Assembly: GCF_016132545.1 (NCBI RefSeq)
Contig: NZ_CP066167.1
Span: forward strand, 434,001 to 498,000
Length of the DNA: 64,000 nucleotides
Reading direction: 5' to 3'
DNA from: Spongiibacter nanhainus
Lineage (GTDB): Bacteria; Pseudomonadota; Gammaproteobacteria; Pseudomonadales; Spongiibacteraceae
How positions within the stretch are numbered: position 1 is the first letter of the stretch; each line of letters begins with the position of its first letter. Shown piece by piece: positions 1-59,136 of this stretch. A program made the position numbers and the translations under genes. Below the pieces are notes generated by a model that saw only the letters and a program-made list of their open reading frames with translations, searched no databases and was not told where the DNA came from.

Positions 1-12
1 ATCGAGGTGCAT
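1..12 (-). CDS. jetC: start of jetC (partial, runs off left edge)
   Basis: Only the first four codons (Met-His-Leu-Asp) lie in the window. The ATG overlaps the jetB stop as TAATG, the tight coupling expected inside a Wadjet operon, where the SMC-like ATPase gene jetC follows jetB. The identity comes from operon position, not from protein sequence. Confidence 0.55.
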
Positions 13-746
13 TAGGATTCCCCTTCGTCTCGTAGGGAGGCTGCATGTGACTTTAACGTGTGGAGTAAGGCAGTGAGGTTCTCCGGGTTGGCCAGGTGGG
101 TGATAATAGGTCTTATACTAATCCGCTCGTGGCTGTCGGGCGCAGATACTAATCCGTGACCTTTCAGCTGATCAAGAAGTTGTAGTGCCCGAGTACGTTC
201 CCGCGCCTCGCTGCCGCTATCACCCAAGTAAACTTGCAGCTGCGGTATCAGCTCATCAACGGTTACCACTGCTTCTGCGGAGCCAGTGCCGGCTTCCTGC
301 TCATGGGCAATAAAGTACTGCCTTAGAATAGCTACGAGTAAGGTCTGCTCCAGGTTCAGGCGCTGTTTACGCACTAGTGGATGAGTCCATTCGTCATTTG
401 GCGTTGCCGAGTCGATGCTGCGAACGGTTAGAAACACCAGGCCGCGTATGTCATCGGCCCTGGCGGCCAAGTCAAGCGGCTCTAAAATCACGTTGATTTT
501 GTCCATCGATACGATGGCGGCTCTGTAGAGATTGGGTCGCAGGCTTTGTTCTAGGAGGCCGACACGCAACAGCTCCTGGGTGGCTTCCCTGAGGGTTTGA
601 TCTGTACGTGCTTGCTGCAGGGGTGAGGCGCCATCTTGTTCCAGGGCAGAGAAATTTTGCTCAGCCTCGCCGCCAGTGGTTTGATGTTCTGCGGGCTGTG
701 GATCGGCATTGGTTTGCCCGGTAATCTGATCGAAAATCCCCGCCAT
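12..746 (-). CDS. jetB: Wadjet protein JetB (DUF4194)
   Basis: A 244-residue protein resembling DUF4194, the kleisin-associated subunit of Wadjet, comparable to MukE. Wadjet complexes recognise and cleave small circular DNA. I place the start at 746, where GGGAG lies 8 nt upstream and the stop of jetA is 2 nt away; a longer start at 773 would overlap jetA. The N-terminal 50 residues are Gln/Glu-rich and probably unstructured, followed by a helical body. The family call rests on length, composition and position directly after a DUF3375 gene. Confidence 0.75.
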   Translation of the reverse strand: MAGIFDQITGQTNADPQPAEHQTTGGEAEQNFSALEQDGASPLQQARTDQTLREATQELLRVGLLEQSLRPNLYRAAIVSMDKINVILEPLDLAARADDIRGLVFLTVRSIDSATPNDEWTHPLVRKQRLNLEQTLLVAILRQYFIAHEQEAGTGSAEAVVTVDELIPQLQVYLGDSGSEARERTRALQLLDQLKGHGLVSAPDSHERISIRPIITHLANPENLTALLHTLKSHAASLRDEGES

Positions 747-748
747 GC

Positions 749-2248
749 TTACAACTCCCATTCCAGATCGCATAGATCTTCGTTGGTCAGTGAGGCTACT
801 GGCACCGTAAATAGCCAGTGCTCTTGATCCTCATCTATAAGTTGCACCTCCTCCGTGAGGGTTGGTTCAATTTCGATGCCGGCTTCTCGCGCCATGCCTA
901 GCCATAAAGCCAATGTTTCCAAGTCGTGGGTGGGCGGGAGACGCTGGGCGAGTTCTGATAGGGTGAGAGCTCGTCCTTCCTTGGAGAGTAGCGCTAATGT
1001 GTTCTGAACTAGTGCTTCTCGGTCAAGGCCGTCTAAAGCATCCCAAAACTCATCCTCAAGCCCCTCCAGATTTGTTTCCTGCGGGGATAGGTCCAACTCA
1101 GCATTGGCGTCACTGTCCAGTGACTTAAACCGTAAGCGCTCGGCGAGAGGCAAGTTACCGAGTGTGAACCCCAGTGGTGGCAGTGGTGAAGCTGTACGAC
1201 GAGTAGATTGGTGCTGCCAGTCAAGTTCTTGGGCGATCTGAAATACCTCATTTAAAAGCTGGCCTACACGATGGTGCTCTGCCGCCAACCCAGTTTTAAT
1301 AAAGCCTTTAACATCTTTTTCGCTGCGCGCCCTTGCTTGGAGAACGGCCTGACTTTCTAACACGAGACGCATACGCAATAGTTTCAAGTCAGACAGCTGG
1401 ATTCGGTTAAGGGCTTTTTCTGCTGAGGGATGCGCTAGAATGCTACGCAGTTGCTCGCGCATATTGTCAAGCTCGATACTTCGCTTCAGTTGTTGCTGAA
1501 AACTGTCAAAAACCCGTCCCTCAGAGGTGTCTAGCAGCGCTTCCTGTCCATTCAGGAGTCTATCGAGAATATCACCCCTATCAAATTGCTCCGACATAAT
1601 TGACTGACGCAATTCGCGGTCTGCTGCCCGCCAGGAGTCCTCTACTCGCCGGAAATCGGCGCGGAGCCCGGTGGCCAGAGTATAAATCTCCCGGATTCGT
1701 TCGATAGCTTCGGAGCTGGATAGGACGGGAGTATGTCCCGCCTCAACAGCGGCTAATTCATCTTCCAGTACCTTGATTTTGCGCTGGATAGCAGCTTTGC
1801 GGCTTGCTGGGTTGGGATTGAGTCCTACTTCCAGGTTCTCAATTTCACGTTGGACCACCGCCAGCCGAGAGGCCGTGGAGGTCATAAAGCGATTATCCAG
1901 AGACTCTACAAAGCGTATAGCTGAAGATAGTGCGTCAGTGGCATAGACCCGTTGCCCGCGTTCAAGTATTAGCCCGCGTTTTAACCACTGCCTAAGCTCC
2001 CTGCTGGCCAGCAAATGGGTATTTTCAGGGTCAATATCATATTCATCTTGGATGGCGTATTCGGCGAGCATTTCGGACAACGCTTGGAGACCATCCTCTT
2101 CCGCAATGCCGTCGTCGCTAAATTCAAATAACGACGTCAGACAGCCAAGCACAAGTGGGGCTCGGGGGGAGGCTAGCAACAACCATGCGGGATGTTGGCG
2201 ACGTATAGACACCAATTTGTGGGTTAGTTGTTGGGCAGAGCTATCCAT
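749..2248 (-). CDS. jetA: Wadjet protein JetA (DUF3375)
   Basis: A 499-residue protein of the DUF3375 family, the kleisin-like subunit of type I Wadjet (JetABCD), an SMC-type anti-plasmid system. The N-terminus has the family-typical pattern of short helices followed by the HPAWLLLASPRAPLVLGCL segment (residues 19-37). A long coiled-coil-like stretch covers roughly residues 120-300, and the C-terminus is acidic. The length is normal for the family. It is first in a minus-strand operon and jetB follows 2 nt after its stop. jetC begins at the window edge and jetD should lie beyond it. Confidence 0.85.
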   Translation of the reverse strand: MDSSAQQLTHKLVSIRRQHPAWLLLASPRAPLVLGCLTSLFEFSDDGIAEEDGLQALSEMLAEYAIQDEYDIDPENTHLLASRELRQWLKRGLILERGQRVYATDALSSAIRFVESLDNRFMTSTASRLAVVQREIENLEVGLNPNPASRKAAIQRKIKVLEDELAAVEAGHTPVLSSSEAIERIREIYTLATGLRADFRRVEDSWRAADRELRQSIMSEQFDRGDILDRLLNGQEALLDTSEGRVFDSFQQQLKRSIELDNMREQLRSILAHPSAEKALNRIQLSDLKLLRMRLVLESQAVLQARARSEKDVKGFIKTGLAAEHHRVGQLLNEVFQIAQELDWQHQSTRRTASPLPPLGFTLGNLPLAERLRFKSLDSDANAELDLSPQETNLEGLEDEFWDALDGLDREALVQNTLALLSKEGRALTLSELAQRLPPTHDLETLALWLGMAREAGIEIEPTLTEEVQLIDEDQEHWLFTVPVASLTNEDLCDLEWEL

Positions 2249-2629
2249 TTATCCACCATTACCAGTTGTACTCCGGGAGTTTGGCAGAAAATAGGGGGTT
2301 GTGGAAACTGGGGTAAGTGATGTGTTTTTACCACTTGGGTGGGTCCGCGTAGAGCGGTCAGAAACTTTCTGGCTATATAGGCTAGATCTAGCACGGCTAA
2401 TGATGAGTAAAAGGCGAGGTTCGGAGGGGAGGATATTTCGTCAAATGGCCACTTGGAACCAACGAAATTCCTTCCCTTGCAGATACCGAACCTGCCTATT
2501 TCACTTCAATGCATTCACTGGCCGAGGCGAGCACTTGGCTCTATCGATTTGATAGCGGAATTTCGGACCGTATGCGTATGCAAATCCTGAGCGCGCACGA
2601 ACTACTCAGCCGATATCAAACAGATTCCT
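2249..2629. other. intergenic stretch with a possible gene fragment
   Basis: No convincing gene lies between jetA and the next minus-strand gene. On the plus strand a 55-codon frame at 2509-2676 reads like real protein (Ser/Leu-rich with a CGCNTC motif near its end), and the same frame stays open upstream to about 2410 without a start codon. It could be the tail of a decayed gene. It overlaps the 3' end of the neighbouring gene, so I do not call it a CDS. Confidence 0.3.
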
Positions 2630-3448
2630 TTATCCGCGAATTATGTGGGTGTAATACCTGCTCGCGTAGTGACTGAGATCGTATAGTATGATTGATTTCC
2701 CAACCATTTCTAATGAAAGTGGCCCTTGACGAACCGTCGGGTTAATTGGGTGCCAACGTCCATCGACATAATCAAAAGAGCGAACCCCACGATCAATTAT
2801 CCGCCTCGCATGTTCCAGAATATTTCTCTTTGTGCTAGCAAAGACCAAACCTTGAATTTCGCCCCGGATAATTGATTCCGCATATAGGGAAAGAATCAGT
2901 TCCAAATGATAGGATCGTAAAGGAGATTCCTGAACTTCGATCAGAACCTGATGCGGTTTTTTATGCGATCCTAAATGCACCACAGCGTCTGGAATTTTGT
3001 AGGCTTGCCGCAAGAAAAATTTCTGCCTCAATCTGAGCTGCCTATCGGTTAAAAAGCGCGCCTGACTATGTTCGGATTTCAGACGCAAGACAATATGCTG
3101 CGTCAATAGATCGTGGACCACATGACTCCTATTTATTTTTGAAGGGAAATAGGCCGTTTTTAGATGCTCGTCTTTATGGCCCACGAATAGTTCTCGGGCA
3201 GTCGAAACTCCGTTCTTTTTTAAGTGGTAAACCCGACCACAAACATTAGGCATTGTGAATGCGTCAATTAAGCCAAATTTTTCGTATCGTGAAAGTGTAG
3301 AGTAAGTGGCTGATCTCTTCGTACCAAACAGCTCGGCTAGAGCGTGTACACTAGATACCTCCCACCGGTAAAGCCATCGCAGCATTTGCCCAAGCTTTTC
3401 TCCTGAGCGCGCCTTGGCGGAGTGGTAATCGTAGTCGCTAAATTTCAT
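2630..3448 (-). CDS. replication-relaxation-like winged-helix protein
   Basis: A 272-residue protein. Residues 15-75 look like a winged helix (an LYRWEVSSVHALAELFG-type recognition region followed by a basic wing). The second half has the pattern of the replication-relaxation family: a His-Val-Val-His-Asp segment near residue 128, a PDAV motif near 172, and an IEVQESPL strand near 188 followed by helices. Members of this family sit on plasmids and mobilisable elements next to replication or relaxase genes. The start follows GGAGAG. Its leader resembles those of the AlpA-like gene and the integrase at 57.7-59.2 kb. The family assignment is by pattern only. Confidence 0.55.
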   Translation of the reverse strand: MKFSDYDYHSAKARSGEKLGQMLRWLYRWEVSSVHALAELFGTKRSATYSTLSRYEKFGLIDAFTMPNVCGRVYHLKKNGVSTARELFVGHKDEHLKTAYFPSKINRSHVVHDLLTQHIVLRLKSEHSQARFLTDRQLRLRQKFFLRQAYKIPDAVVHLGSHKKPHQVLIEVQESPLRSYHLELILSLYAESIIRGEIQGLVFASTKRNILEHARRIIDRGVRSFDYVDGRWHPINPTVRQGPLSLEMVGKSIILYDLSHYASRYYTHIIRG

Positions 3449-3494
3449 GGGGGTTCTCTCCTATTAAATGGACTTCACAATCACAGTGGGAGAA
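3449..3494 (-). promoter_or_regulatory. shared leader element, copy 1
   Basis: Upstream of the gene ending at 2630, the minus strand carries CTCCCACTGT (3483-3492), then 21 nt, then the ribosome-binding purines GGAGAG just before the ATG. GTTCTC on the 5' side can pair with GAGAAC around the ribosome-binding site. The same arrangement recurs at 57720-57766 and 59137-59180. Confidence 0.5.
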
Positions 3495-4571
3495 CACGCC
3501 ACGAGAATTGATCTGGCTGGCCTATGCGGGAGAAGGCGCTGGCTTTGTCGGACGCTCTGGGCGACATATCGGTGGACTGGATGTCCAGCACGGAGTCCGG
3601 CCATTTCGTCCGGGTAGTTCTGCGGCTCTCCAACCCCTGCCCGAGGCGATGTCATGTAGGAAGCACCTTTGCCTAATGAGTTCTAACTCATTGATTTCTG
3701 GAAGGTCTTGGCCCGCCACCCCGCTGTCGCGGGGCCCCGAACAGGCCAAGACGGCCGACAAAAAGCAGTGCTTTTGTGTCAGCTAGTTCGCGCCGCCGTC
3801 TTCGACGGCCACCCGCCCTGACGGGCTGGAAAAGCGCTCCCGATGGTCGCCCCTTGCGCCACCGGCCCGATAACCAGCTAGCGCTGCTTATCGGGGCCCG
3901 CCCGGTGGCCCTGCGGGCTGCGGCATTTTCCAGGTCCTGCGGATGCCGTATCGTCGCTAACGCTCCTGCCCGCCTGCGGCGGCGGCATCCTCGGACTCCA
4001 CCCGACGCCCCGCTCGCGGGGACCCCCGTCGGGTTGGACACGGGGTGCAATTCGAGCGGCCCTGATTGTCGCGCTGCGACCGGCCTACGGCCTCAATCCG
4101 GGGCCCGGCCGCTCGAATTACACCCCTCCGTCAGCTCGGGTGGCCGTCGAAGACGGCGGCGCGAAGGCGTGCTTTCGCAGCGCCTGATGAAGCGGATTTG
4201 CGTACCCATTTTTCTACAAACCTCATCGCCCAGAGACAGAAAAATGGGACCCTGCGCGCAAATCAGCACTCTTTCCAAGCATTGGATCTGGAAGGATTTC
4301 GTCGTCTGATCAGGGCCAGCCAATCGGACGATCAGGTTGTTATTTCCCGCTGGAAGCAATACGTTTAAAGGTACAAGTTGACTTGATTGCTGAGGCTCAT
4401 CTCGAACTCGATTACCCTTGATAGAATCACAAATTTGCCTGGCAATTTAACACTATTATGGGGTTAAAATAAGCGGATGATGGGAGAAAAACGATTGATG
4501 CAAAGACCAACTACGCTGGAAAGAACCCGCTCACATGACCAAATAGACCATTGGTGCTGGGAACCATTTTC
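3495..4571. other. gene-poor stretch surrounding the GC-rich repeat block
   Basis: Long open frames here are by-products of high GC and inverted repeats and are present on both strands. A 50-codon plus-strand frame at 3524-3676 (starting MREKALALSD) has a protein-like composition but no recognised family. From 4265 to 4571 I see no gene; the region is AT-richer and ends at the left terminus of an IS3 element. Confidence 0.4.
3700..4264. repeat. GC-rich block of nested inverted repeats
   Basis: A perfect 29-bp inverted repeat (3787-3815 against 4137-4165) encloses about 320 bp at far higher GC than the flanks. Inside are further stems: CCCCGC/GCGGGG twice, CCACCGG/CCGGTGG around CCGATAA/TTATCGG (about 3861-3910), CCCGACG/CGTCGGG (about 4000-4034), and AATTCGAGCGGCC against GGCCGCTCGAATT (about 4051-4120). 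To the left, GTCTTGGCC pairs with GGCCAAGAC near 3705-3752. To the right, GATTTGCG...CGCAAATC encloses CCCATTTTTCT/AGAAAAATGGG (4195-4264). This could be a structured RNA, a transfer or replication origin, or a non-autonomous mobile element. Confidence 0.7.
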
Positions 4572-4634
4572 TGAATCGCCCCCAGTTTGCTAGACACCTT
4601 TTAGCCATAGAAAATGGCACAAAGAGAGGTGTTT

Positions 4635-4913
4635 ATGAGCAAGCAGCGTTATCCAGAAGAGTTCAAGATTGAAGCGGTTAAGCAGGTCACGGTATCGGGT
4701 CACAGCGTAGCCGATGTGGCCCAACGGCTAGGCACAACAACTCATAGCCTTTACGCATGGATTAAGCGTTACGGCCCTAACTCAGAAGCGCATCGCAAGG
4801 AGTCCGATGATGCTGCGGAGATCCGACGTCTACAGAAGGACTTGAAGCGCGTTACTGAAGAGCGTGACCTGTTAAAAAAAGCCGCGGCGTACTTCGCAAG
4901 CCACCCCGAGTAA
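4635..4913 (+). CDS. IS3-family transposase OrfA
   Basis: A 92-residue DNA-binding subunit. It starts with the YPEEFKIEAVKQV helix typical of IS3 OrfA, has a helix-turn-helix around residues 20-45 and a leucine-zipper-like heptad region near 60-85. The start at 4635 follows AGAGAGGT. A run of seven A at 4874-4880 near the end is the expected -1 slippery site, fusing OrfA to OrfB to give the active transposase. Confidence 0.9.
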   Translation: MSKQRYPEEFKIEAVKQVTVSGHSVADVAQRLGTTTHSLYAWIKRYGPNSEAHRKESDDAAEIRRLQKDLKRVTEERDLLKKAAAYFASHPE

Positions 4914-5791
4914 GATACGCCTTTATCGCTGAACACCACAGCTCTCATTCTGTACGGCAGTTATGTCAGCTGTTTGGTGTTCAACCCAGCGGGTACTACG
5001 CCTGGAAGAAACATCCAAAATCCAAGCGACAGATTGATGATGAGCGTCTTACTGGTCTCATCAAGCAGTATTGGCTTGAATCAGGCTGCGTCTATGGCTA
5101 TCGCAAGATTCATAGAGATCTAAGGGACGCGGGTGAGCGTTGTGGCCTAAATCGCGTACATCGTTTGATGAAGCTTGAAGGCATTAAGGCTCAGGTTGGG
5201 TACCGCAAGCCCAGACAGCGCGGTGGAGAACGACATGTCATCACACCCAATGTGCTAGACCGGCAGTTTGATCCGGTCATGCCAAATCAGGCTTGGGTTA
5301 CCGATATTACGTACATCAAGACCCATGAAGGCTGGCTTTACCTCGCAGCGGTGATGGATCTCTTCTCTCGCCGTATCATTGGTTGGTCTATGCAGTCTCG
5401 CATAACCAAAGAGCTTGTGCTGGATGCATTACTAATGGCTGTCTGGCGTCGAAAACCTATAAAGGGAGTGCTGGTTCACTCGGATCAGGGCAGCCAATAC
5501 ACAAGCCATGACTGGAGCGAGTTTCTCAGAGAGCATGGCTTGGAGGGGAGCATGAGCCGCCGAGGCAACTGCCACGACAACGCGGTTGCGGAAAGCTTCT
5601 TCCAGTTACTAAAGCGAGAACGAATAAAGCGCAAAATATACGCGACACGAGATGCAGCAAGGAGCGATATATTTGATTACATCGAGATGTTCTACAACAC
5701 AAAACGACAGCATGGTTCCAACAATGGGCTGTCGCCTGTAGATTATGAGCGTCAGTATTTAAAAGAGGCTGAAAAGCGTCTAGTGAACTAG
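4880..5791 (+). CDS. IS3-family transposase OrfB (frameshifted)
   Basis: The DDE integrase-type half of the transposase, read in the -1 frame after the A7 slippery site. An HTH_21-like region (QLFGVQPSGYYAWKK) precedes the rve core. Acidic residues are seen in WVTDITYI, HSDQGSQYTS and the AVAESFFQLLKRE glutamate segment. The frame is intact to the stop at 5791, so the element may still be active. Confidence 0.88.
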   Translation, partial: SRGVLRKPPRVRYAFIAEHHSSHSVRQLCQLFGVQPSGYYAWKKHPKSKRQIDDERLTGLIKQYWLESGCVYGYRKIHRDLRDAGERCGLNRVHRLMKLEGIKAQVGYRKPRQRGGERHVITPNVLDRQFDPVMPNQAWVTDITYIKTHEGWLYLAAVMDLFSRRIIGWSMQSRITKELVLDALLMAVWRRKPIKGVLVHSDQGSQYTSHDWSEFLREHGLEGSMSRRGNCHDNAVAESFFQLLKRERIKRKIYATRDAARSDIFDYIEMFYNTKRQHGSNNGLSPVDYERQYLKEAEKRLVN

Positions 5792-5801
5792 TGGCGATTC
5801 A

Positions 5802-6886
5802 CTACTGCATGAGCCAGCTTACCTTTGCCGAAGCCGAATACCAGAACAAAAAGCGTAAAACGCGGCGTGAGCTGTTCTTGGAAAAAATGGATAGTCTGAT
5901 TCCCTGGGCCAAGCTAGAGAAGAAGCTCCGCAAGCACTACCCCAAAGGTGAGAATGGAAACCCGCCGTATCCGCTCCCCATTATGCTTCGGGTGCACTGC
6001 CTGCAATTGTTCTACAACCTCAGCGATCCGGCGATGGAGGATGCCCTGTACGAGATTGAGTCCATGCGCCGCTTTGCAGGGCTACGCTTGTCTGATCGGC
6101 TACCAGATGAAAGTACTATCCTCCGCTTCCGTCATTTTTTAGAGCGCCACAAATTGGGCGAAGTGATCTTCGATACCGTGAGCGCCCAGTTGCGTCAGCA
6201 GGGTTTGATGATGCGTGAAGGCACCATTGTTGATGCCACGATTATCGCCGCGCCCAGCTCAACCAAGAATCAGGATGGCGAGCGAGACCCGGAAATGCAC
6301 CAGACCAAGAAAGGCAATGAGTGGCACTTTGGCATGAAGATGCATATTGGCGTGGATGACCGGGACGGCTTGATTCACAGCATCGAGACCACAGCTGCGA
6401 ATGTGCATGATCTCACTGCGGCAGATCAGCTTCTTCATGGAGAAGAGCAGCGGGTCTGGGGTGACGCGGGTTATACCGGCATCCATAAGCGAGACGCATT
6501 TAAAGATCGGGATGTCGATTGGCGTATCGCGCTACGCCCCGGCACCCGGAGCAATCTGGCTGATCAGCTGCAGGAAATGCTGGAGGGGATAAAGGCCAGC
6601 GTTCGCGCCAAGGTTGAGCATCCGTTCCGGACGATCAAGCAACAGTTTGGCTATACGAAGGTTCGCTACCGTGGGCTGGCGAAAAACACCAACCGCCTGT
6701 ATGTGTTATCAGCGTTTACCAACCTGCTGAGAGCGGAGAAATACCTGCCCTCATAGGGTAGGTACGCCTGTAGTCAGCCAAATGGCTGCCTACAGGCTGA
6801 GATGAACTGAGGATTGCTGCGTTTTACGCCGTTGACGCGGAAATTTGGCGATATTTTATAAAAGGGAGAGGTTGTGCAGACCTTCC
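5802..6886 (+). mobile_element. IS5-family element, copy 1, left end deleted
   Basis: Nearly identical to the complete copy at 11883-13027, but the first 60 bp including the left inverted repeat are absent and replaced by the IS3 element. The right terminus GTTGTGCAGACCTTCC is present and is followed by CTAA, which fits the YTAR target preference of IS5. Without a left end it should not transpose on its own. Confidence 0.85.
5809..6756 (+). CDS. IS5-family transposase, copy 1
   Basis: A 315-residue transposase with an N-terminal DUF772-type domain (LFYNLSDPAMEDALYEIESM) and a DDE core: DATIIAAPSS carries the first Asp, WGDAGYTG the second, and the RAKVEHPFRTIKQQFG segment the Glu. It differs from the copy at 11950 by only a few residues. 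The start at 5809 matches that copy; an upstream in-frame Met derives from IS3 sequence. Confidence 0.9.
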   Translation: MSQLTFAEAEYQNKKRKTRRELFLEKMDSLIPWAKLEKKLRKHYPKGENGNPPYPLPIMLRVHCLQLFYNLSDPAMEDALYEIESMRRFAGLRLSDRLPDESTILRFRHFLERHKLGEVIFDTVSAQLRQQGLMMREGTIVDATIIAAPSSTKNQDGERDPEMHQTKKGNEWHFGMKMHIGVDDRDGLIHSIETTAANVHDLTAADQLLHGEEQRVWGDAGYTGIHKRDAFKDRDVDWRIALRPGTRSNLADQLQEMLEGIKASVRAKVEHPFRTIKQQFGYTKVRYRGLAKNTNRLYVLSAFTNLLRAEKYLPS

Positions 6887-6923
6887 CTAAGTAATGAGAA
6901 CACCCATCGAAGAGAATGAAATT

Positions 6924-9618: not shown

Positions 9619-11882
9619 CTCTAAACATTTAGCCGGAACAAGGACGCATCATGAAATTGCTTTGGTGTGAGCATCAAATGAACCAATCGCGCGCCGTTTC
9701 TGCTTGTAGTAAATAAAGTACGAGTTCTACATAACCAAATTAAAATAGCGGTAGAGTTTCATCTGATACGGCTGCGACTCTACCACGGCTCCCTAAAATA
9801 AAAAAATTTAGTGCTCCAATAAAAGGAGCAAATTTATAACGTAAATTAGCCGGTAGTTTTGCTACCTCTCGTCAACAGCCGGGCTTAGTTTAACTAGATT
9901 TCTCGCGATGTATTTTGGTTGCCCTTGGAAAGGTGGGTCATTCGGATCCTTTCCTTCAAGCTTTTAATTTGTAATGAAATTTCATCATTCAGATCACCGC
10001 TGTATATCATCGAAGTTTCCATATTCGCATACTTCCCAGTTCGAGCAGCACTGGCCCAGTTATAGGAGCCTACGCTTAAGAAGCTATTGTCGGCCATGAT
10101 TAGCTTACTATGAACGCCGTTTACTACGTAGACATCTACGCCGATCTCACACAAGGTTTCACAATTCTGTGCAAAGAGCGACGCTTTGGACTCGTCGTAA
10201 TGATTCATTGATGTTGAATTGAAATGATAGTCAGTATAGATACTGATGCTGACCCCGCGTCGAAGGGCATCTAGGATTTCTGGGTACAAGCCCGTTTCCT
10301 TGAGGCGCTGAATGGATATCCACGGCGAGACCATATCAATTCGGGAGTTCGCCTTTCTCAATATTTGCCTAATATACTCATCATGTTCCTCTGCATTATT
10401 AATGAGCCTAGGGGTAACAGCTGACTTGAATAGATCCGGTCTTTCATCTACCGGCAATATCAATTCATTGGAATCTGAACTGAATAAATAGCGGGCCAAT
10501 ATACTCCTTGGCTTACCTCGACCCGCACTGGAGATGACGTCCATATCTCCAAACACAATAAAGCTATCCTTTGCCCTTGAGACAGCGACGTTAAGCATTG
10601 ATGGAGCCATATCAATAAAATCACCATCACTATGTCTTGAATAGACAGCAGAAAAAATAATGATCGGTCTTTCCGCCCCCTGTAGTGCGTGAACGGTTCC
10701 CACTATTAATTTGCTTTCGCCTTTGCCGGCATGAATACCGTTCTTGACGCAAGCGCGTTCTATTTTTTCCTGTTGAGATTTGAAAGGGGTAATGACGCCA
10801 ACCAAATCCTCCAGCTTTTTGTCTTGGTAATCTCCACCTTTTTTTTGGTAATAACTTTCAATATTCTCCCGATTTGCTGCAAGCCAATTGGCGATCTGAA
10901 TTGCCTCCAAAACATTATGGCGACTTCCGGTGGGAGGCGCTTCTGCAAGGCCATCAATATGAAGATAAGACATGGGGGGGAATAGAGAATCGTGAGGAGC
11001 AGAACCTCGTTTGGGTTCCAATAACCCCTGATAACAAAGGTCATTGCTAAACGAAATTATTTCGTCATAACAGCGGCGATGTTCACGCAGGAACATGCCT
11101 GGCTCAGCTTCCTTAATGTAGCAATAACGACTAGTACGTTGTGCTATACGCATTACACTTCCGTTAATTACGGAGTTCCCCGTTTTTAATGCTTCGGGGT
11201 ACTCCTCTTCGTTACTAATTACGTCATATTGGATGAGGTTCCCTGTGTCTATTGATCCCGTGAGTGATCTAATCGGCTCGATTTGGTGGATATCGCCAAT
11301 AATCAGAGCGCTTTTCGCCAAGGAAAAAGAAGCGGCAGCAACCTCTGGAGACACTTGCCCTGCTTCGTCAACGATTAGTAAATCGATTTCCCCCGCCAGA
11401 TATTCGTCACTAAATTTTTCTCCCCCTGAGTGCGCTTGATATACCATGTGGGACGGTAGTGAATGCAAGGTAGATACAATGCACGGTGTTAGCATCATCC
11501 GTCTCCGCCAGCGTGGTAGTACGGATTTTTTGCCGGTTCTCCGACTTCCTGCCCAGTCTGTGCCACCTTCTTCCTGCATTTTTCTGCACTCGATAAGCCA
11601 CTGCGCTTCCCAGTAATGCACGCTTAACTGAAAGAGCTGGAACCTGACGGACGTATCTAAAATGTTATCAATCGACGTAATGTTCGGTAAATCTGTCAAT
11701 CCGGGTGCGATATGGTTAGTTACTGAACGCCAGTTTTGCTGTGCGGTGATCCATTCTTTAATAAGAGCAGCTTTGTATTCCTTGTCTTTTTTCAGTGCTG
11801 AAAGGTCATTCTCCTTTGCCTGTATCCAAGATAGAAGCTCCTCCTCTACGTTATCTACATTCCTGATAACAGATTTACTTAA

Positions 11883-13027
11883 GGAAGCTCTGCATAACCC
11901 CCGTAATTTGAGATAATTCTGCGATCACCGATTTCAACCGGACTACTACATGAGCCAGCTTACCTTCGCCGAAGCCGAATACCGGAACAAAAAGCGTAAA
12001 ACGCGGCGGGAGCTGTTCCTGGAAAAAATGGATGGCTTGATTCCCTGGGCCAAGCTGGAGAAGAAGCTCCGCAAGTACTACCCCAAGGGTGAGAATGGAA
12101 ACCCACCTTACCCGCTCCCCATTGTGCTTCGGGTGCATTGCCTGCAATTATTTTACAACCTCAGCGATCCGGCGATGGAAGATGCGTTGTACGAGATTGA
12201 GTCTATGCGCCGCTTTGCCGGGCTGCGCCTGTCTGACCGGCTGCCAGATGAAAGCACCATTCTCCGCTTCCGTCATTTTTTAGAGCGTCACAAATTGGGC
12301 AAGGTGATCTTCGATACCGTGAGCGCCCAGTTGCGGCAGCAGGGCCTGATGATGCGTGAAGGCACCATTGTTGATGCCACGATTATCGCCGCGCCCAGCT
12401 CAACCAAGAACCAGGATGGCGAGCGAGACCCGGAGATGCACCAGACCAAGAAAGGCAATGAATGGCACTTCGGCATGAAGATGCATATTGGCGTGGATGA
12501 CCGTGACGGCTTGATTCACAGCGTCGAAACCACAGCCGCGAATGTGCATGACCTCAATGCGGCAGATCAGCTTCTACATGGAGAAGAACAGCGGGTCTGG
12601 GGTGATGCGGGTTATACCGGTATCCATAAGCGAGATGAATTTAAAGATCGGGATGTCGATTGGCGCATCGCGCTACGCCCCGGCACCCGGAGCAAGCTGG
12701 CTGACCAGCTACAGGAAATGCTGGAGGAGATAAAGGCCAGCGTTCGTGCGAAGGTTGAGCATCCGTTCCGAACGATCAAGCAGCAGTTTGGTTATGGGAA
12801 GGTGCGCTACCGCGGACTGGCGAAAAATACCAATCGCCTGTATGTCCTATCGGCATTTACCAACCTGCTGAGAGCGGAGAAATACTTGCCTTCGTAGGGA
12901 AGGTGCGTCTGTAGCCAGCCAAATGGCTGACTACAGACAAGGCGAAGCAGCGAATGGCGTTGTTTTGCGCATATGGCGCGGAAAAACGACCATATTTTAT
13001 GAATGCGGGAAGTTGTGCAGAGCTTCC
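11883..13027 (+). mobile_element. IS5-family element, copy 2, complete, with TTAA duplication
   Basis: A 1,145-bp element. The left terminus GGAAGCTCTGCATAAC matches the reverse complement of the right end with one mismatch. It is flanked by TTAA at 11879-11882 and 13028-13031, fitting the YTAR target of IS5. It lies antisense within the helicase-PLD gene and its insertion point is exact. Confidence 0.95.
11950..12897 (+). CDS. IS5-family transposase, copy 2
   Basis: A 315-residue intact transposase almost identical to the copy at 5809. The DDE core residues lie in DATIIAAPSS, WGDAGYTG and the VEHPFRTIKQQFG helix. The complete termini and target duplication suggest a recent, potentially active insertion. 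Confidence 0.93.
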   Translation: MSQLTFAEAEYRNKKRKTRRELFLEKMDGLIPWAKLEKKLRKYYPKGENGNPPYPLPIVLRVHCLQLFYNLSDPAMEDALYEIESMRRFAGLRLSDRLPDESTILRFRHFLERHKLGKVIFDTVSAQLRQQGLMMREGTIVDATIIAAPSSTKNQDGERDPEMHQTKKGNEWHFGMKMHIGVDDRDGLIHSVETTAANVHDLNAADQLLHGEEQRVWGDAGYTGIHKRDEFKDRDVDWRIALRPGTRSKLADQLQEMLEEIKASVRAKVEHPFRTIKQQFGYGKVRYRGLAKNTNRLYVLSAFTNLLRAEKYLPS

Positions 13028-14751
13028 TTAAATCGCTAAACTTAGTTTCGATAAACACATTTCTAAGTAGGAGTAATTTGCGAGCAACAGGTGGGAGCCA
13101 ACGAAAAATCAGATAAAAAACTGGTTCTTTCGATAAAAACATTCGCCAAGACTTCTGGTCTGACCTAACATCGCGCAGCATTTTTTCAGCCGCTTCCAGG
13201 TTCTGCGTGACCTGAAGATAGCTATTTTTTGGGTCTTCACCCATGGCCTCCAAACATCGATTATGCGCTGTAGACAATGTTTCCCAAGCGTTTTTTATCT
13301 GCAATAGCGTGTCTTGAAGATCAAGCATGCTTTGGTGCAAAGTTTTTTGTATAATCTCGATTGAATCTAGGTTGGTATTTTTAAACGCGGCCTTAGCCTT
13401 TCTGATAAATATTGACTCAGATCGATCAATAAATTCAGATTGCTCCATCGATTCATAGAAGCTTTTCGTTTGATAAAGCGGTGATGCCTCGCTCTCTTTG
13501 CTGGCAGCAGGGAAATAACCGCCATAACTTTTTAGTTCTGGGATCCAACGTCCGCTAAATAATGAATCGTTCTCTTCGAAGTCCTTTCCAAAAGCAGCAA
13601 TAATATTTGTTACCGCCTGATTATTGGTCGATGCTGCGATAATAATTGGTGGGTCGGCTTTTTTCAGAGCTGCTTTAATCCATAAGGAGGCCACAGCAGA
13701 AAGTACGAATGTGGTTTTACCTGTGCCTGGCGGACCATTAACTGCGAGAATTTCTCCCTCCTTCATATGGAGCATATGCGCCAATGCATCTTTTTGCGCT
13801 TTTGCTAAAGGGAAATTACTATTTGAGTGCCCTAGTCTGCAAGAAATAGATTTTTCTTGATCTAAACGCGGAAGAAACTTAGTAACCTTTCCAAGAGCAA
13901 AGTTCTCTAACAGAGGAAAATTCTCGTTCTTGGTTTGCAGCCAATCATATAATCGCAAGATATTTCGACTTGTATTTATCGCGTCATCGGTTTTGATCAG
14001 ATAGGTTTTCTTGTTTTTTTCTGGCAAATATCCGGCGGAAAGTTTTAATTTTGTCTCGTCGCTATTTAATGCTGTGAACAATGTTTGGGCGAGTTTATAG
14101 TACTGCTCCCATTCCTGATATTGCTTGCCGGGAATCAGTTCGTTTTCAGCGAGCGCTTGTGCTTCCTGCTCATTAAAAACCTGTATTTCATTCTGAGTTT
14201 GAAATGCATCCAGATCGTCAACGCTATACAAAGTAAATTTGTCATCGTCTTGGGGGGATAACAAATCCCTAGGGACAGTCGGTTTACCTGCTGGGTAAAA
14301 TTTACCATTTCGGCTTATCCATACATGGCAGATTATTGGGCTCAGCACATCAGGTCTGGAGCTTGTGTGTTTCTGGCCATGTTCATATTTGCTTATATAT
14401 ATTACGGGCCGTATAAGAGCCTTAATGATCCGAGTCTTTTCAGGCTCACCCGCGAAAAGAATTTTTAAGTTTTCTTTGTTAAGTTCCGAGTTGGCGTCAT
14501 TTTGTAACGTCCCCTGTTGAAATTGAGCAACGTTAACAGAGATGTGAGACCTAAGATTTTTTTTGTTTATTGCGCCTCTTCCTGCTTCGGCATCTGCGAG
14601 TGAGTTGCGCCAGTAACGAAGCCAGTTTTTCGTGTTCCCTGATTTGTGCATACAAAATTCCATTTCATTTTTCAACTGAAAAGGTTTTAAACCTTAAAAA
14701 ATATGACACTCCGCGCCTCAAGGAGTAGCTCCTTCCAAAGAAGAAGCGTAT

Positions 14752-15861
14752 TCATTCCAAGCTAACCAAAACATAGCTTGTGCTTCTACCGCCAGCTGGC
14801 TCCTTCTCTAGCAACCCACGCGTCATAAGATCATTAATATCCCGAGTAGCAGTATCCTGCGAGCATTTGCAGATTTTTGCCCACTTGGAAGAGGTCAACT
14901 TACCCTCAAACCCATCCAGCAGGCTATTCAACATTTTCTGCTGCCGTGAATTAAAATTCTGGTCCGCATTACTGGTCCAGAACTTGGCTTTGGCCATCAC
15001 TTTTCCTGTGATGATCTCCGCACCATCAATGGCTCCCTCAAAGGCCTCCAGGAACCACGACAGCCAAGGCGTGATATTCAAACTGCCCTTTTGGGTTTTC
15101 TCCAGAATATCGTAATAGGATTTATGCTGCCGCTGTATTTCGGCTGACATACTGTAAAATCGGTGTGGACTGCCCTCAGCCCGGGCCAGCAGCATATCTG
15201 CCTGCGCGCGAGCTGTCCGCCCATTACCATCTTCGAAGGGGTGGATCGTGACAAACCAAAGGTGGGCTATACCCGCCTTAAGATTGAGGTCACCTTTAAA
15301 TGGAGCGTCGAACCATTCGAGGAATCGCGCCATTTCTTGTGGTATCCGTCCGGCATCTGGCGCTTCAAAGTGTATTGTTTCCCGGCCTATTGGACCGGAT
15401 ACAACCTGCATGGGACCAGCTTCCGCTTTACGCCAGTCTCCAACCGTGATTTTGTGCATGCCGCTACGTCCGGTGGGAAACAGCGCCGCATGCCAGGAAC
15501 ACAGGCGCTCACTGGTGAGCGGCTTATCGAAGTACCGGGTAGCATCCAGCATCATTTCCACCACGCCTTCGACAGCGTGATCAGCTTTGACCAGACCTGG
15601 AATATCCATTCCCAGATGCCGGGCAATAGAGGAGCGTACCTGCTGCTTGTCGAGGATTTCTCCTTCGATTTCGCTGGTCCGCAGTACATCTTCGGTCAGC
15701 GTGTAGAGCTCAGCCTCTTGCTGCAATTCAAAACCGAGGGATTCCATCCTCCCGAGCAGACGCCCCTGCTTGCGGGAAACAGCAGGTACCCGCTCCGCGA
15801 TGATTGCTTCATCGAAGCTGAAGTTGGGCCAGTCGGGAAGTTCGTGGATATACCTTGCCAT
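14752..15861 (-). CDS. fic: Fic family AMP transferase
   Basis: A 369-residue protein with an N-terminal DUF4172-like region, a central Fic core and a C-terminal winged helix. The catalytic motif HPFEDGNGRTAR (residues 207-218) is complete, so it should transfer AMP to a hydroxyl group on a target protein. The inhibitory motif TSEIEG at residues 62-67 fits [S/T]xxxE[G/N], placing it among Fic proteins with an N-terminal self-blocking helix. The ATG at 15861 follows GGAG. It lies 76 bp upstream of the split helicase-PLD gene. A decayed paralogue sits at 56520-57461. Repeats overlapping its start hint at autoregulation by the winged helix. Confidence 0.9.
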   Translation of the reverse strand: MARYIHELPDWPNFSFDEAIIAERVPAVSRKQGRLLGRMESLGFELQQEAELYTLTEDVLRTSEIEGEILDKQQVRSSIARHLGMDIPGLVKADHAVEGVVEMMLDATRYFDKPLTSERLCSWHAALFPTGRSGMHKITVGDWRKAEAGPMQVVSGPIGRETIHFEAPDAGRIPQEMARFLEWFDAPFKGDLNLKAGIAHLWFVTIHPFEDGNGRTARAQADMLLARAEGSPHRFYSMSAEIQRQHKSYYDILEKTQKGSLNITPWLSWFLEAFEGAIDGAEIITGKVMAKAKFWTSNADQNFNSRQQKMLNSLLDGFEGKLTSSKWAKICKCSQDTATRDINDLMTRGLLEKEPAGGRSTSYVLVSLE

Positions 15862-15940
15862 AATCTCCGCACCTTTTGCTGGGATTATGGCGATTAATCT
15901 CCGCATCCGCAATGCTATTATCCGCACTGTGTGCGGAGAA
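15859..15940 (-). promoter_or_regulatory. repeated operator-like motif upstream of fic
   Basis: TAATCTCCGC occurs at 15861-15870 and 15895-15904 on the plus strand, with a close relative (TATTATCCGC) at 15916-15925. The third copy forms a perfect palindrome with its right neighbour, TCCGCAC-TGT-GTGCGGA (15921-15937). The first copy covers the fic start codon. Fic proteins of this type often carry a DNA-binding C-terminus, so autorepression is plausible. Confidence 0.5.
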
Positions 15941-15969
15941 AACTGTGATTCATCCCCGCAAGGCAAGTA

Positions 15970-16140
15970 CGCCCATCAAAGCCACACGTAATGCTACCCC
16001 AGGTTCAGTGGTAGATTTGTGGGGGCACATGTTCTCTGCTTCGCCAAACTATACCCAACACAACGGCCACCTCGGGAATTTTGCATTTAAAAAAACAGTG
16101 GCTTAAGGTTTTTTTGGATTTCTCATAACCTCAATCTCTA
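15970..16140. repeat. direct repeat block A (paired with 57480-57640)
   Basis: This stretch downstream of block coordinates shared by both Fic loci is recognisably the same as 57480-57640: common landmarks are GATTTGTGGGGGCACATG, CCAAACTATACCCA and GGATTTCTCATAACC. Both copies lie in the same orientation about 41.5 kb apart. Confidence 0.7.
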
Positions 16141-57479: not shown

Positions 57480-57640
57480 ATGTCCGCCAAAGCCACAAGT
57501 ATTGCTTCGCGAGGTCTAGTGGGAGATTTGTGGGGGCACATGTCCTCTGCTATGCCAAACTATACCCAGAACAACGGACGCCTCGGATATTTTTAACTTA
57601 AAAACAGTAGCTTAGGACTTGGTTGGATTTCTCATAACCC
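57480..57640. repeat. direct repeat block B (paired with 15970-16140)
   Basis: Same landmarks as block A beside the intact fic gene (GATTTGTGGGGGCACATG, CCAAACTATACCCA, GGATTTCTCATAACC) in the same orientation. The two blocks with their Fic genes bracket the catabolic region. Confidence 0.7.
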
Positions 57641-57719
57641 GAAGGTCGTGCTTCAGAGTTGACACATAGCTCTGATGTCGTGCATCACTATCGTTCTTTT
57701 ACTGTGTTTGTTCCTCTAT

Positions 57720-58065: not shown

Positions 58066-59136
58066 TTACGATGCTGGCGGCAACACATTCCTCATTTTGC
58101 CGAGTAAGTGCTGTGCGTTCAGGTGTGTATATCGATTGAGCATGGCGATGGTTCGATGGCCAGTAATCAGTTGGGCTTCATGGGGCTCAAGGTGATGCCG
58201 TTCGAATAAGCGACTGGTTGCCTCGTGCCTAAGGTCGTGGAATCGAAACCCCTCTAGCTTAGCTCTCGCTGCGCTTCGTTCAAATGCTTGCCGGATCTGA
58301 GGTGCGTTGCTGCCAAACACGCGGGAGCCTTCTTCTGCGCTCTCGCTTCGCAGCGACGTAATCTCCTGCGCTAAGTTGTACGAGAGGGGGAATTTCCGCG
58401 CATCATTGTTCTTAGAGAACTTGCGGTCTACCGTGACGAACGTGACGCCCAGTTGCGGGTCTTTGTATATATCTTGCCAGCGCAGTTGGGCGATTTCCGC
58501 CTGCCGCATTGCGGTTTCCAGTGCAAATCGTACTATTAGGCCTATTGGGGTTGTGCACCGAGTGTCTGTTTCATACTTAGCGCAGGCTTCCAGAAGTTTT
58601 TCTTCCTCATTGGGGAGTAGGCGTCGGTCTCGGGCGTTGTTTACTTTGGGAAGGCAGCCGGGTTTTACGGGGTTGTCGAGATTTAAGCCCAGTCGTGCAT
58701 TGGCCAGATTATAGGCAGTGCGAATAAAGCCGACATTTTGCTTGATCGTGGCGGCTGCTGCGGGTGGGTGTGCCTTGCGGAGCCGGTTTACCATCTCGGC
58801 AATGTGGCTTGTGCAGAAGGAGTCCGCAGGAATGCCTAACAAATCTGGGTGCTGTGCCTGCAAAGAGCGAATTTTTGAGGTGGTGGTGCGTCGAGTATTG
58901 GGTTTCCACTCTTCGGTTTTCTGCTCAATGAAGACATCGAGCAGTTCGCCAACCGTGATGGTGGCGCCCCGTAATGCGGCGTCAAAGCGGTTGGTGCGGG
59001 CGGCTTTGGCAAGCTGATTTAGCCACTGTGTGGCCGCCTCTTCGGTATCAAAGCTTCTGCTGATTCGCTGCCCTTGTTGCGTCACCCGTGCTCGGTAGCG
59101 AGAACCCCGTTTGTCGATAGAGCCAAAAAATTTCAA
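58066..59136 (-). CDS. int: tyrosine-type integrase
   Basis: A 356-residue tyrosine recombinase. An N-terminal arm-binding region (GSIDKRGSRYRARV) and core-binding SAM-like domain precede the catalytic domain, with Arg in ETAMRQAEIAQLRW, HDLRHEATSRLF and GHRTIAMLNRYTH supplying R..HxxR..H..Y. It starts with TTG after GGGAGAGA. The tRNA-Phe 3' fragment lies 167 bp upstream, so this integrase probably uses tRNA-Phe as its attachment site. Confidence 0.92.
   Translation of the reverse strand: MKFFGSIDKRGSRYRARVTQQGQRISRSFDTEEAATQWLNQLAKAARTNRFDAALRGATITVGELLDVFIEQKTEEWKPNTRRTTTSKIRSLQAQHPDLLGIPADSFCTSHIAEMVNRLRKAHPPAAAATIKQNVGFIRTAYNLANARLGLNLDNPVKPGCLPKVNNARDRRLLPNEEEKLLEACAKYETDTRCTTPIGLIVRFALETAMRQAEIAQLRWQDIYKDPQLGVTFVTVDRKFSKNNDARKFPLSYNLAQEITSLRSESAEEGSRVFGSNAPQIRQAFERSAARAKLEGFRFHDLRHEATSRLFERHHLEPHEAQLITGHRTIAMLNRYTHLNAQHLLGKMRNVLPPAS

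Follow-up and report, generated by a model that had tools for sequence, protein, structure and literature searches.

What is the role of a gene-free block of nested hairpins beside a relaxase-like gene in Spongiibacter nanhainus? The block occupies positions ~3690-4264 of the 64-kb stretch of DNA analysed here (the window) and is 70% GC. The preliminary description offered a structured RNA, an oriT or replication origin working with the adjacent replication-relaxation protein, or a non-autonomous element. With a probability of about 0.78, we conclude that the block provides the oriT region for a mobilization module of MOBC type, served by the adjacent divergent MobC relaxase. We favour this reading because the neighbouring gene is MobC-like, the equivalent regions ahead of mobB in MOBC plasmids are folded, a pair of inverted motifs is common to these sequences, and the copy in Spongiibacter thalassae sits in an island with att repeats. 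Features of the locus are listed in Table 1.

Table 1. Features of the hairpin block and its surroundings (window coordinates).
Feature	Position	Strand	Remarks
mobC-like gene	2630..3448	-	272 aa; MOBC (CloDF13 MobC / Replic_Relax) relaxase candidate; PF13814; H112, P153, D154, E171
Small hairpin region	3574..3600		Contains GTCCAGC (3583), a weak candidate for a second oriT motif; no difference from S. thalassae
Relaxase-side outer hairpins	3691..3786		85% identity to S. thalassae
29-bp repeat, left arm	3787..3815		GGGTGGCCG on minus strand, 3814 down to 3806; candidate nic 1
Nested hairpins between the candidate nic motifs	3816..4136		3791-4185 has 96.5% identity to S. thalassae; outer flanks ~80%
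29-bp repeat, right arm	4137..4165		GGGTGGCCG on plus strand, 4138-4146; candidate nic 2
Far-side outer hairpins	4166..4264		Includes a long imperfect hairpin at ~4195-4264; 79% identity to S. thalassae (4186-4264)
5' gene remnant	4477..4571	+	Intact (182 aa) in S. thalassae (L011:17402-17950); cut by an IS3-type insertion

The block is GC-rich and strongly folded

The GC content of positions 3700-4185 is 0.704, compared to 0.477 for 2700-3699, 0.490 for 4265-5264 and 0.494 for all 64 kb. The hairpin density of the window is greatest at the block. Open reading frames overlying the block are not the same in the window and in S. thalassae. Hence, the earlier view of a GC-rich nest of hairpins without a credible gene stands. 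The perfect inverted repeat of 29 bp lies within a longer pair of 38 nt (3787-3824 and 4128-4165) with 95% complementarity. A second pair, of 20 nt (4042-4061 and 4107-4126), lies inside it. The 29-bp repeat was originally taken to bound the structure. Although perfect in the window, it does not do so; further hairpins occur at 3700-3786 and 4166-4264.

Folding of 3690-4264 with RNA parameters gave z-scores of -11.1 (plus strand) and -13.3 (minus strand). With DNA parameters, the values were -14.5 and -16.8. None of 100 shuffled sequences folded as well in any of the four tests. A fixed 500-nt grid across the first 20 kb (40 grid windows) cuts the block in two, and the halves scored -3.1 (3501) and -4.0 (4001); taken whole, 3701-4200 scored -10.0. 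The lowest grid score, -7.4, was outside the block at 15501-16000. Another low score, -10.1, was seen at L030:12001-12500.

A search of the 4.08-Mb S. nanhainus genome found one full-length copy of the block; the other two matches were the 38-nt arms aligning with each other. The idea of a dispersed, non-autonomous element was abandoned on this basis.

The block is conserved in S. thalassae

In a DNA search of 390 genomes of the order, the sole other carrier of the block was S. thalassae KMU-166 (G378). Four further genomes had one short match each (L005-L008), none with the block. Homology between the window and S. thalassae spans 2461-4502 (91% identity) and takes in the relaxase-like gene and the block, extending into the first part of the 182-aa gene. 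Identity was 81% in the left flank, 95.5% in the relaxase-like gene, 93% in the next intergenic stretch and 80% downstream. The block was 92% identical overall and 96.5% identical in its core (3791-4185), with lower values for the outer hairpins (Table 1). The core is better conserved than third codon positions of the relaxase-like gene, where 24 of 272 are changed.

In S. thalassae the 29-bp repeat is imperfect, with 26 of 29 Watson-Crick pairs. The right arm has three changed positions; its own small hairpin is kept and the long repeat is spoiled. At the hairpin around 3758-3777, the outer arms are replaced on both sides, the inner AAAAGC/GCTTTT is kept and pairing is retained. For the local fold of the minus strand, four two-sided changes still pair (permutation mean 0.41; 0 of 2000 permutations reach four) and 14 pairs are broken (null mean 18.3, P 0.08). 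For the full fold there are three two-sided changes (null 0.50, P 0.012) and 16 broken pairs (null 22.4, P 0.015). Because they come from a single relative, the paired changes support stem conservation but fall short of proof, and template switching could give the same result. The check proposed earlier, whether homologues exist and preserve the stems by compensatory changes, had a mixed outcome: in the one homologue the local stems are kept, with a few two-sided changes, but the 29-bp stem is not fully kept.

Template switching could also operate neutrally. Palindromes would then grow as arms copy each other, and paired changes would arise without function, as might have happened at the outer arms of the 3758-3777 hairpin. 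We consider this extremely unlikely, given the difference in identity between the core and the flanks, and since closeness to mobC and the motif pair described below are common to MOBC plasmids. The two-sided changes, and the very strong fold of both strands, could also be read as signs of a long structured non-coding RNA made from the region, such as one that regulates mobC or the island. However, DNA parameters give stronger z-scores than RNA parameters, and the scores of both strands are high. Furthermore, Rfam gave no match at the gathering score in the window or in loci L016, L031, L034 and L039; the best sub-threshold match had an E value of 0.085. A non-coding RNA is thus improbable, and a known structured RNA is not supported.

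The neighbouring gene encodes a candidate MOBC relaxase

The 272-aa product of the adjacent gene scored 26.1 bits against Pfam Replic_Relax (PF13814), marginally above the cut-off of 25.3. In a six-frame genome search with PF13814, neither Spongiibacter genome reached an E value of 0.001. The match to NCBIfam NF041423 (MobC_subf) had an E value of 1.4e-13 and 50.7 bits, below the cut-off of 200. By sequence, the product is a relative of this subfamily model rather than a member. All 12 aligned proteins, the Spongiibacter pair included, share residues H112, P153, D154 and E171. The window protein is 16-22% identical to the non-Spongiibacter sequences in this alignment. The MOBC family is described as akin to PD-(D/E)XK restriction endonucleases (PMC12857230) and the invariant PD...E residues are as expected for such a family. 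By analogy with the family, P153, D154, E171 and H112 are the putative catalytic residues (PD-(D/E)xK-like). A structure model of the protein, built from a 2-row alignment, had a mean pLDDT of 46.5 and was too poor to search for the restriction-endonuclease fold and N-terminal winged helix of MobC relaxases.

Among 369 genomes of the class, the window protein was found in its own genome, G413 and G732 only. The G732 protein (L016) is 24% identical to it (E 4e-10), and is ~41% identical to the nearest plasmid proteins annotated as MobC; 1214 plasmid records contain a match. Taken together, the sequence comparisons make the product of the neighbouring gene a distant relative of the MobC (MOBC, CloDF13-type) relaxases. 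PF13814 matched in 9 of 390 genomes, with 3 over the cut-off. The window protein had no tblastn match in plasmids, and the G732 protein had none in phages. No plasmid carried the window block, or the G732 block, in blastn searches. Viral contigs searched with two proteins and one 20-mer yielded nothing. No block was found in L020; when L021-L029 were inspected by hairpin density, L027 had a dense stretch, which fell in a long ORF.

The Pfam name Replic_Relax invites a different explanation: a replication origin, of the rolling-circle or theta type, at which the replication-relaxation protein would act as the initiator. Rolling-circle origins usually contain non-coding DNA rich in hairpins. In addition, the window relaxase has a weak relative at L015:1399-2160 (30% identity), next to an ORF read by eye as a filamentous-phage replication gene. 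Conversely, we recognised no gene for replication next to the block. The plasmid kin are annotated as MobC mobilization proteins and lie beside coupling-protein genes in 9 of 10 records. We therefore regard a replication origin as very improbable. Of the earlier proposal of an oriT or replication origin, it is the oriT that has gained ground, with a MobC-type neighbour and with a motif pair and closeness to the relaxase as in MOBC plasmids. As expected of an oriT, the block is a non-coding, hairpin-rich region beside a candidate relaxase gene.

The 29-bp repeat carries an inverted pair of candidate nic motifs

The sequence GGGTGGYCG occurs only twice in the 64-kb window, at 3814 (minus strand) and 4138 (plus strand). 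The copies are inverted, with one in each 29-bp arm. S. thalassae and 4 of 10 MOBC plasmids (L033, L043, L044 and L045) also have an inverted pair with this polarity. A one-base-longer variant of the pair occurs in L048. The motifs are 324 nt apart in the window compared with 68-84 nt in the plasmids. The exact pair is absent from the other six plasmids (L031, L032, L034, L047, L048 and L049) and from genome loci L016, L053, L054, L056, L057 and L058. Several loci without the exact pair are nonetheless strongly folded. Eight control loci (167 kb) had no inverted pair except for that of the S. thalassae block, which is contained in one of them.

A single match in the block has a P value of 0.037 by shuffling; the second is forced by the inverted repeat. 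We take GGGTGGYCG to be a candidate nic motif from what we presume to be the CloDF13 nic and from the plasmid alignment. The longer presumed form of the CloDF13 nic, GGGTGGTCGGG, was in none of 18 sequences scanned. Because the motif was picked after seeing the alignment of plasmid transfer regions, and from the presumed nic, the pair is a strong lead but no clean test.

Setting aside the window and S. thalassae, 9 of the 11 loci scanned have a second sequence, GTCCAGC, within their putative transfer regions. This sequence occurs once near the block, at the position given in Table 1, with ~0.1 occurrences expected by composition in 771 nt. When GNA loops were oriented by the GTCCAGC strand, the tally was 24 to 3 over 9 blocks; L032 and L045 have no GTCCAGC in the transfer region, and so were outside this tally. 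The window and S. thalassae show the opposite orientation (1 to 7 each), and the tally was not used as evidence.

The loops bear on a further alternative. The block could be a leading-region site for single-strand initiation or a promoter (ssi / Frpo type), with the oriT proper elsewhere, for example at 3574-3600. Such sites are known from leading regions (PMC11541004). The extreme DNA fold of the block, stronger on the minus strand, would suit them, as would the 7 to 1 excess of GNA/GNNA loops on the minus strand of the window. However, the loop strand bias, pursued as a candidate signal, was absent over 13 pooled blocks (P 0.49) and was dropped. Moreover, PMC11541004 describes MOBC leading regions as having no anti-defence enrichment, and MOBC was left out of the later analysis there. 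We judge this alternative highly unlikely. A CGCT-repeat motif was also rejected; it is enriched in some blocks but has one match in the window, and 49 of 200 shuffled sequences had as many.

Regions upstream of mobB in MOBC plasmids are mostly folded

In MOBC systems the layout oriT-mobB-mobC has been described, with two nic sites within inverted repeat IR2 (PMC2262945). An oriT of ~250 bp near mobB is enough for mobilization in ICEKp1, and has two inverted repeats and two nic motifs (PMC4891358, citing Lin 2008 for the mobilization). For ICEEc1, ICEKp1 and pMET1, the two nic motifs are reported to be in inverted orientation within an inverted repeat. MOBC is one of the groups for which fewer than 10 oriTs are known (PMC7755788).

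We examined 10 MOBC plasmid records. The coupling-protein gene, mobB, is annotated ahead of mobC in nine; in L043, mobB is unannotated and its start was assumed to be at 2100. The 500 nt before mobB had z-scores of -5 or below in 8 of 10 records (-5.1 to -14.9; plus strand, 12 shuffles), among which the transfer regions of L033, L034, L043, L044 and L048 can be aligned and hence are not independent. Weaker folds were found for L032 (-2.3; next 500 nt, -8.5) and L045 (-0.9; next 500 nt, -2.9). Control windows from mobB onward (103, from nine loci) averaged -1.70 (sd 2.87, lowest -18.0). Nine of these reached -5, seven of them from L034, L043 and L044. In L034 and again in L043, the fold of one control window equals or exceeds that of the region before mobB.

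For comparison, the intergenic region of R388 (MOBF) that we take to be its oriT had a z-score of -5.9. The 67 windows averaged -1.4 and three reached -5, one of which overlaps that region. Hence, strong folding is a general trait and not specific to MOBC, though it is stronger in several MOBC cases. At six further loci with MobC matches, where genes were judged by position only, the best-folded window was beside the match or upstream of the preceding gene in four (L054, L056, L057 and L058) and elsewhere in L053 and L055. The position of the block with respect to the genes varies. It is found before mobB in plasmids, before mobC in the window and after mobC in G732.

The closest known systems are of the ICEEc1 (HPI-ECOR31), ICEKp1 and pMET1 type, which we compared via plasmids L033, L034, L043, L044 and L048, taken as relatives. 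These share a MobC-family relaxase and a long inverted repeat with nested hairpins that are swapped. They also share the GGGTGGYCG pair with the same polarity, which is exact in L033, L043 and L044, longer in L048 and not found in L034. Conversely, the window gene has no adjacent mobB, its motifs are further apart (324 nt compared with 70-84 nt), and the block is at the 5' end of mobC itself. CloDF13-type plasmids, for which a ColRNAI MOBC plasmid (L046/L049) was the stand-in, similarly have a MobC relaxase and a folded region upstream of mobB (z -5.6). They differ in being plasmids with mobB, and in the stand-in there is no exact GGGTGGYCG pair.

The S. thalassae copy is in a tRNA-associated island

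In S. thalassae the module follows a tRNA-Met gene and a tyrosine integrase gene. The last 45 bp of the tRNA-Met gene are repeated, exactly and directly, at C9:240300, which defines a 40.6-kb island. The island carries a Tmn-like defence gene. With its tRNA-Met, integrase, att repeats, relaxase and defence cargo, it resembles integrative mobilizable elements and tRNA-gene defence islands. The window copy differs: no integrase and att repeats were found around it and it is away from tRNA-Met, which in this genome is at C1:3003315, with no relative of the S. thalassae integrase beside it. The only match to that integrase in the window genome is 29% identical and is at C1:503995.

The window module instead adjoins a Wadjet type I operon on the minus strand (JetA, 749-2248; JetB, 12-773; JetC and JetD are beyond the window). 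PADLOC matched all four of JetA, JetB, JetC and JetD (window 12-2248 and L017:15551-19997, both minus strand). Wadjet acts against plasmids, and its position next to a predicted conjugation origin is a puzzle. On the other side of the block, an IS3-type element (4572-5801), with ends TGAATCGCC...GGCGATTCA, is inserted in the downstream gene. The intact 182-aa product of this gene in S. thalassae has no Pfam, NCBIfam or PHROGs match.

No match to PF02534 (VirD4-type coupling protein) or PF03135 (VirB4) was found in either Spongiibacter genome; PF03135 was detected in just 1 of 14 control genomes. The chromosomal locus in G732, which belongs to another family, combines MobC with a folded block (z -4.3 and -10.1) and AbiE genes, and has ORFs that we read as integrase-like. 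A coupling-protein match under the cut-off, just before mobC, may be a remnant of mobB. Thus, defence genes are near the module in 3 of 3 chromosomal cases, an association that is suggestive only.

Two other observations concern the window. At 57625-57649 there are 19 bp of the tRNA-Met anticodon arm, with GGATTT ahead as in the S. thalassae att repeat. The site adjoins a tyrosine integrase gene (58066-59136), no tRNA gene is present there, and by sequence it resembles the remains of an att site from a tRNA-Met island. Separately, 5801-6893 and 11880-13030 are two copies of one transposase element that is also found in S. thalassae (C9:218109-219262).

A model for transfer from the block

Most likely, the block serves as the oriT of an integrative mobilizable element of the MOBC class, and a nested-hairpin insert of unusual length separates its two candidate nic motifs. 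In that case, it would most likely belong to a known type of transfer origin, as a heavily folded variant. SGI1 uses MpsA, which is of the tyrosine-recombinase kind and not MOBC, and in this the proposed element differs from SGI1. The likeness is in the arrangement, since SGI1 is an island that brings an oriT and mobilization genes of its own and relies on another element for its mobilization (PMC6414798).

In our model, the divergent MobC relaxase, with its PD...E nuclease motif, would bind the block and nick it at one of the inverted GGGTGGYCG copies carried by the 29-bp repeat. A conjugation apparatus from another element would then guide the strand into the recipient. The nested hairpins would fold in the single strand and could act in recognition, in termination and re-closure, or in the first copying steps in the recipient. 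We infer the nicking, the choice of strand, the transfer, the dependence on a helper and the role of single hairpins from the comparisons above.

The model provides a testable route of mobility for the Wadjet-neighboured module of a marine genome and for the Tmn-carrying island of S. thalassae. Defence genes may be carried from cell to cell by islands that lack mating machinery. A further implication is that the fold and the inverted motif pair together might identify MOBC transfer origins, whose sequence is scarcely conserved. Among the matches listed from the open-access literature, no paper dealt with the block or with MOBC islands of Spongiibacter, and none described nested hairpins as a general signature of MOBC origins. 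A broader idea, which we consider doubtful, is that nested-hairpin blocks are a general MOBC module, poor in sequence but conserved in structure. The folded strand would act in the recipient (in priming, early transcription or protection), and hairpins would be swapped whole with the two inverted nic motifs kept. If so, the block would be a structural signature for the transfer origins of MOBC islands that have lost the relaxase or coupling gene.

Two other folded regions were seen. A large intergenic palindrome with inner hairpins, unrelated to the block, is present in another genome of the order (L005:1450-1660). On MOBC plasmids, a second strongly folded region lies near a zincin-like metallopeptidase gene (L044:5801-6300 and L043:5801-6300), and its hairpin density is about that of the oriT region.
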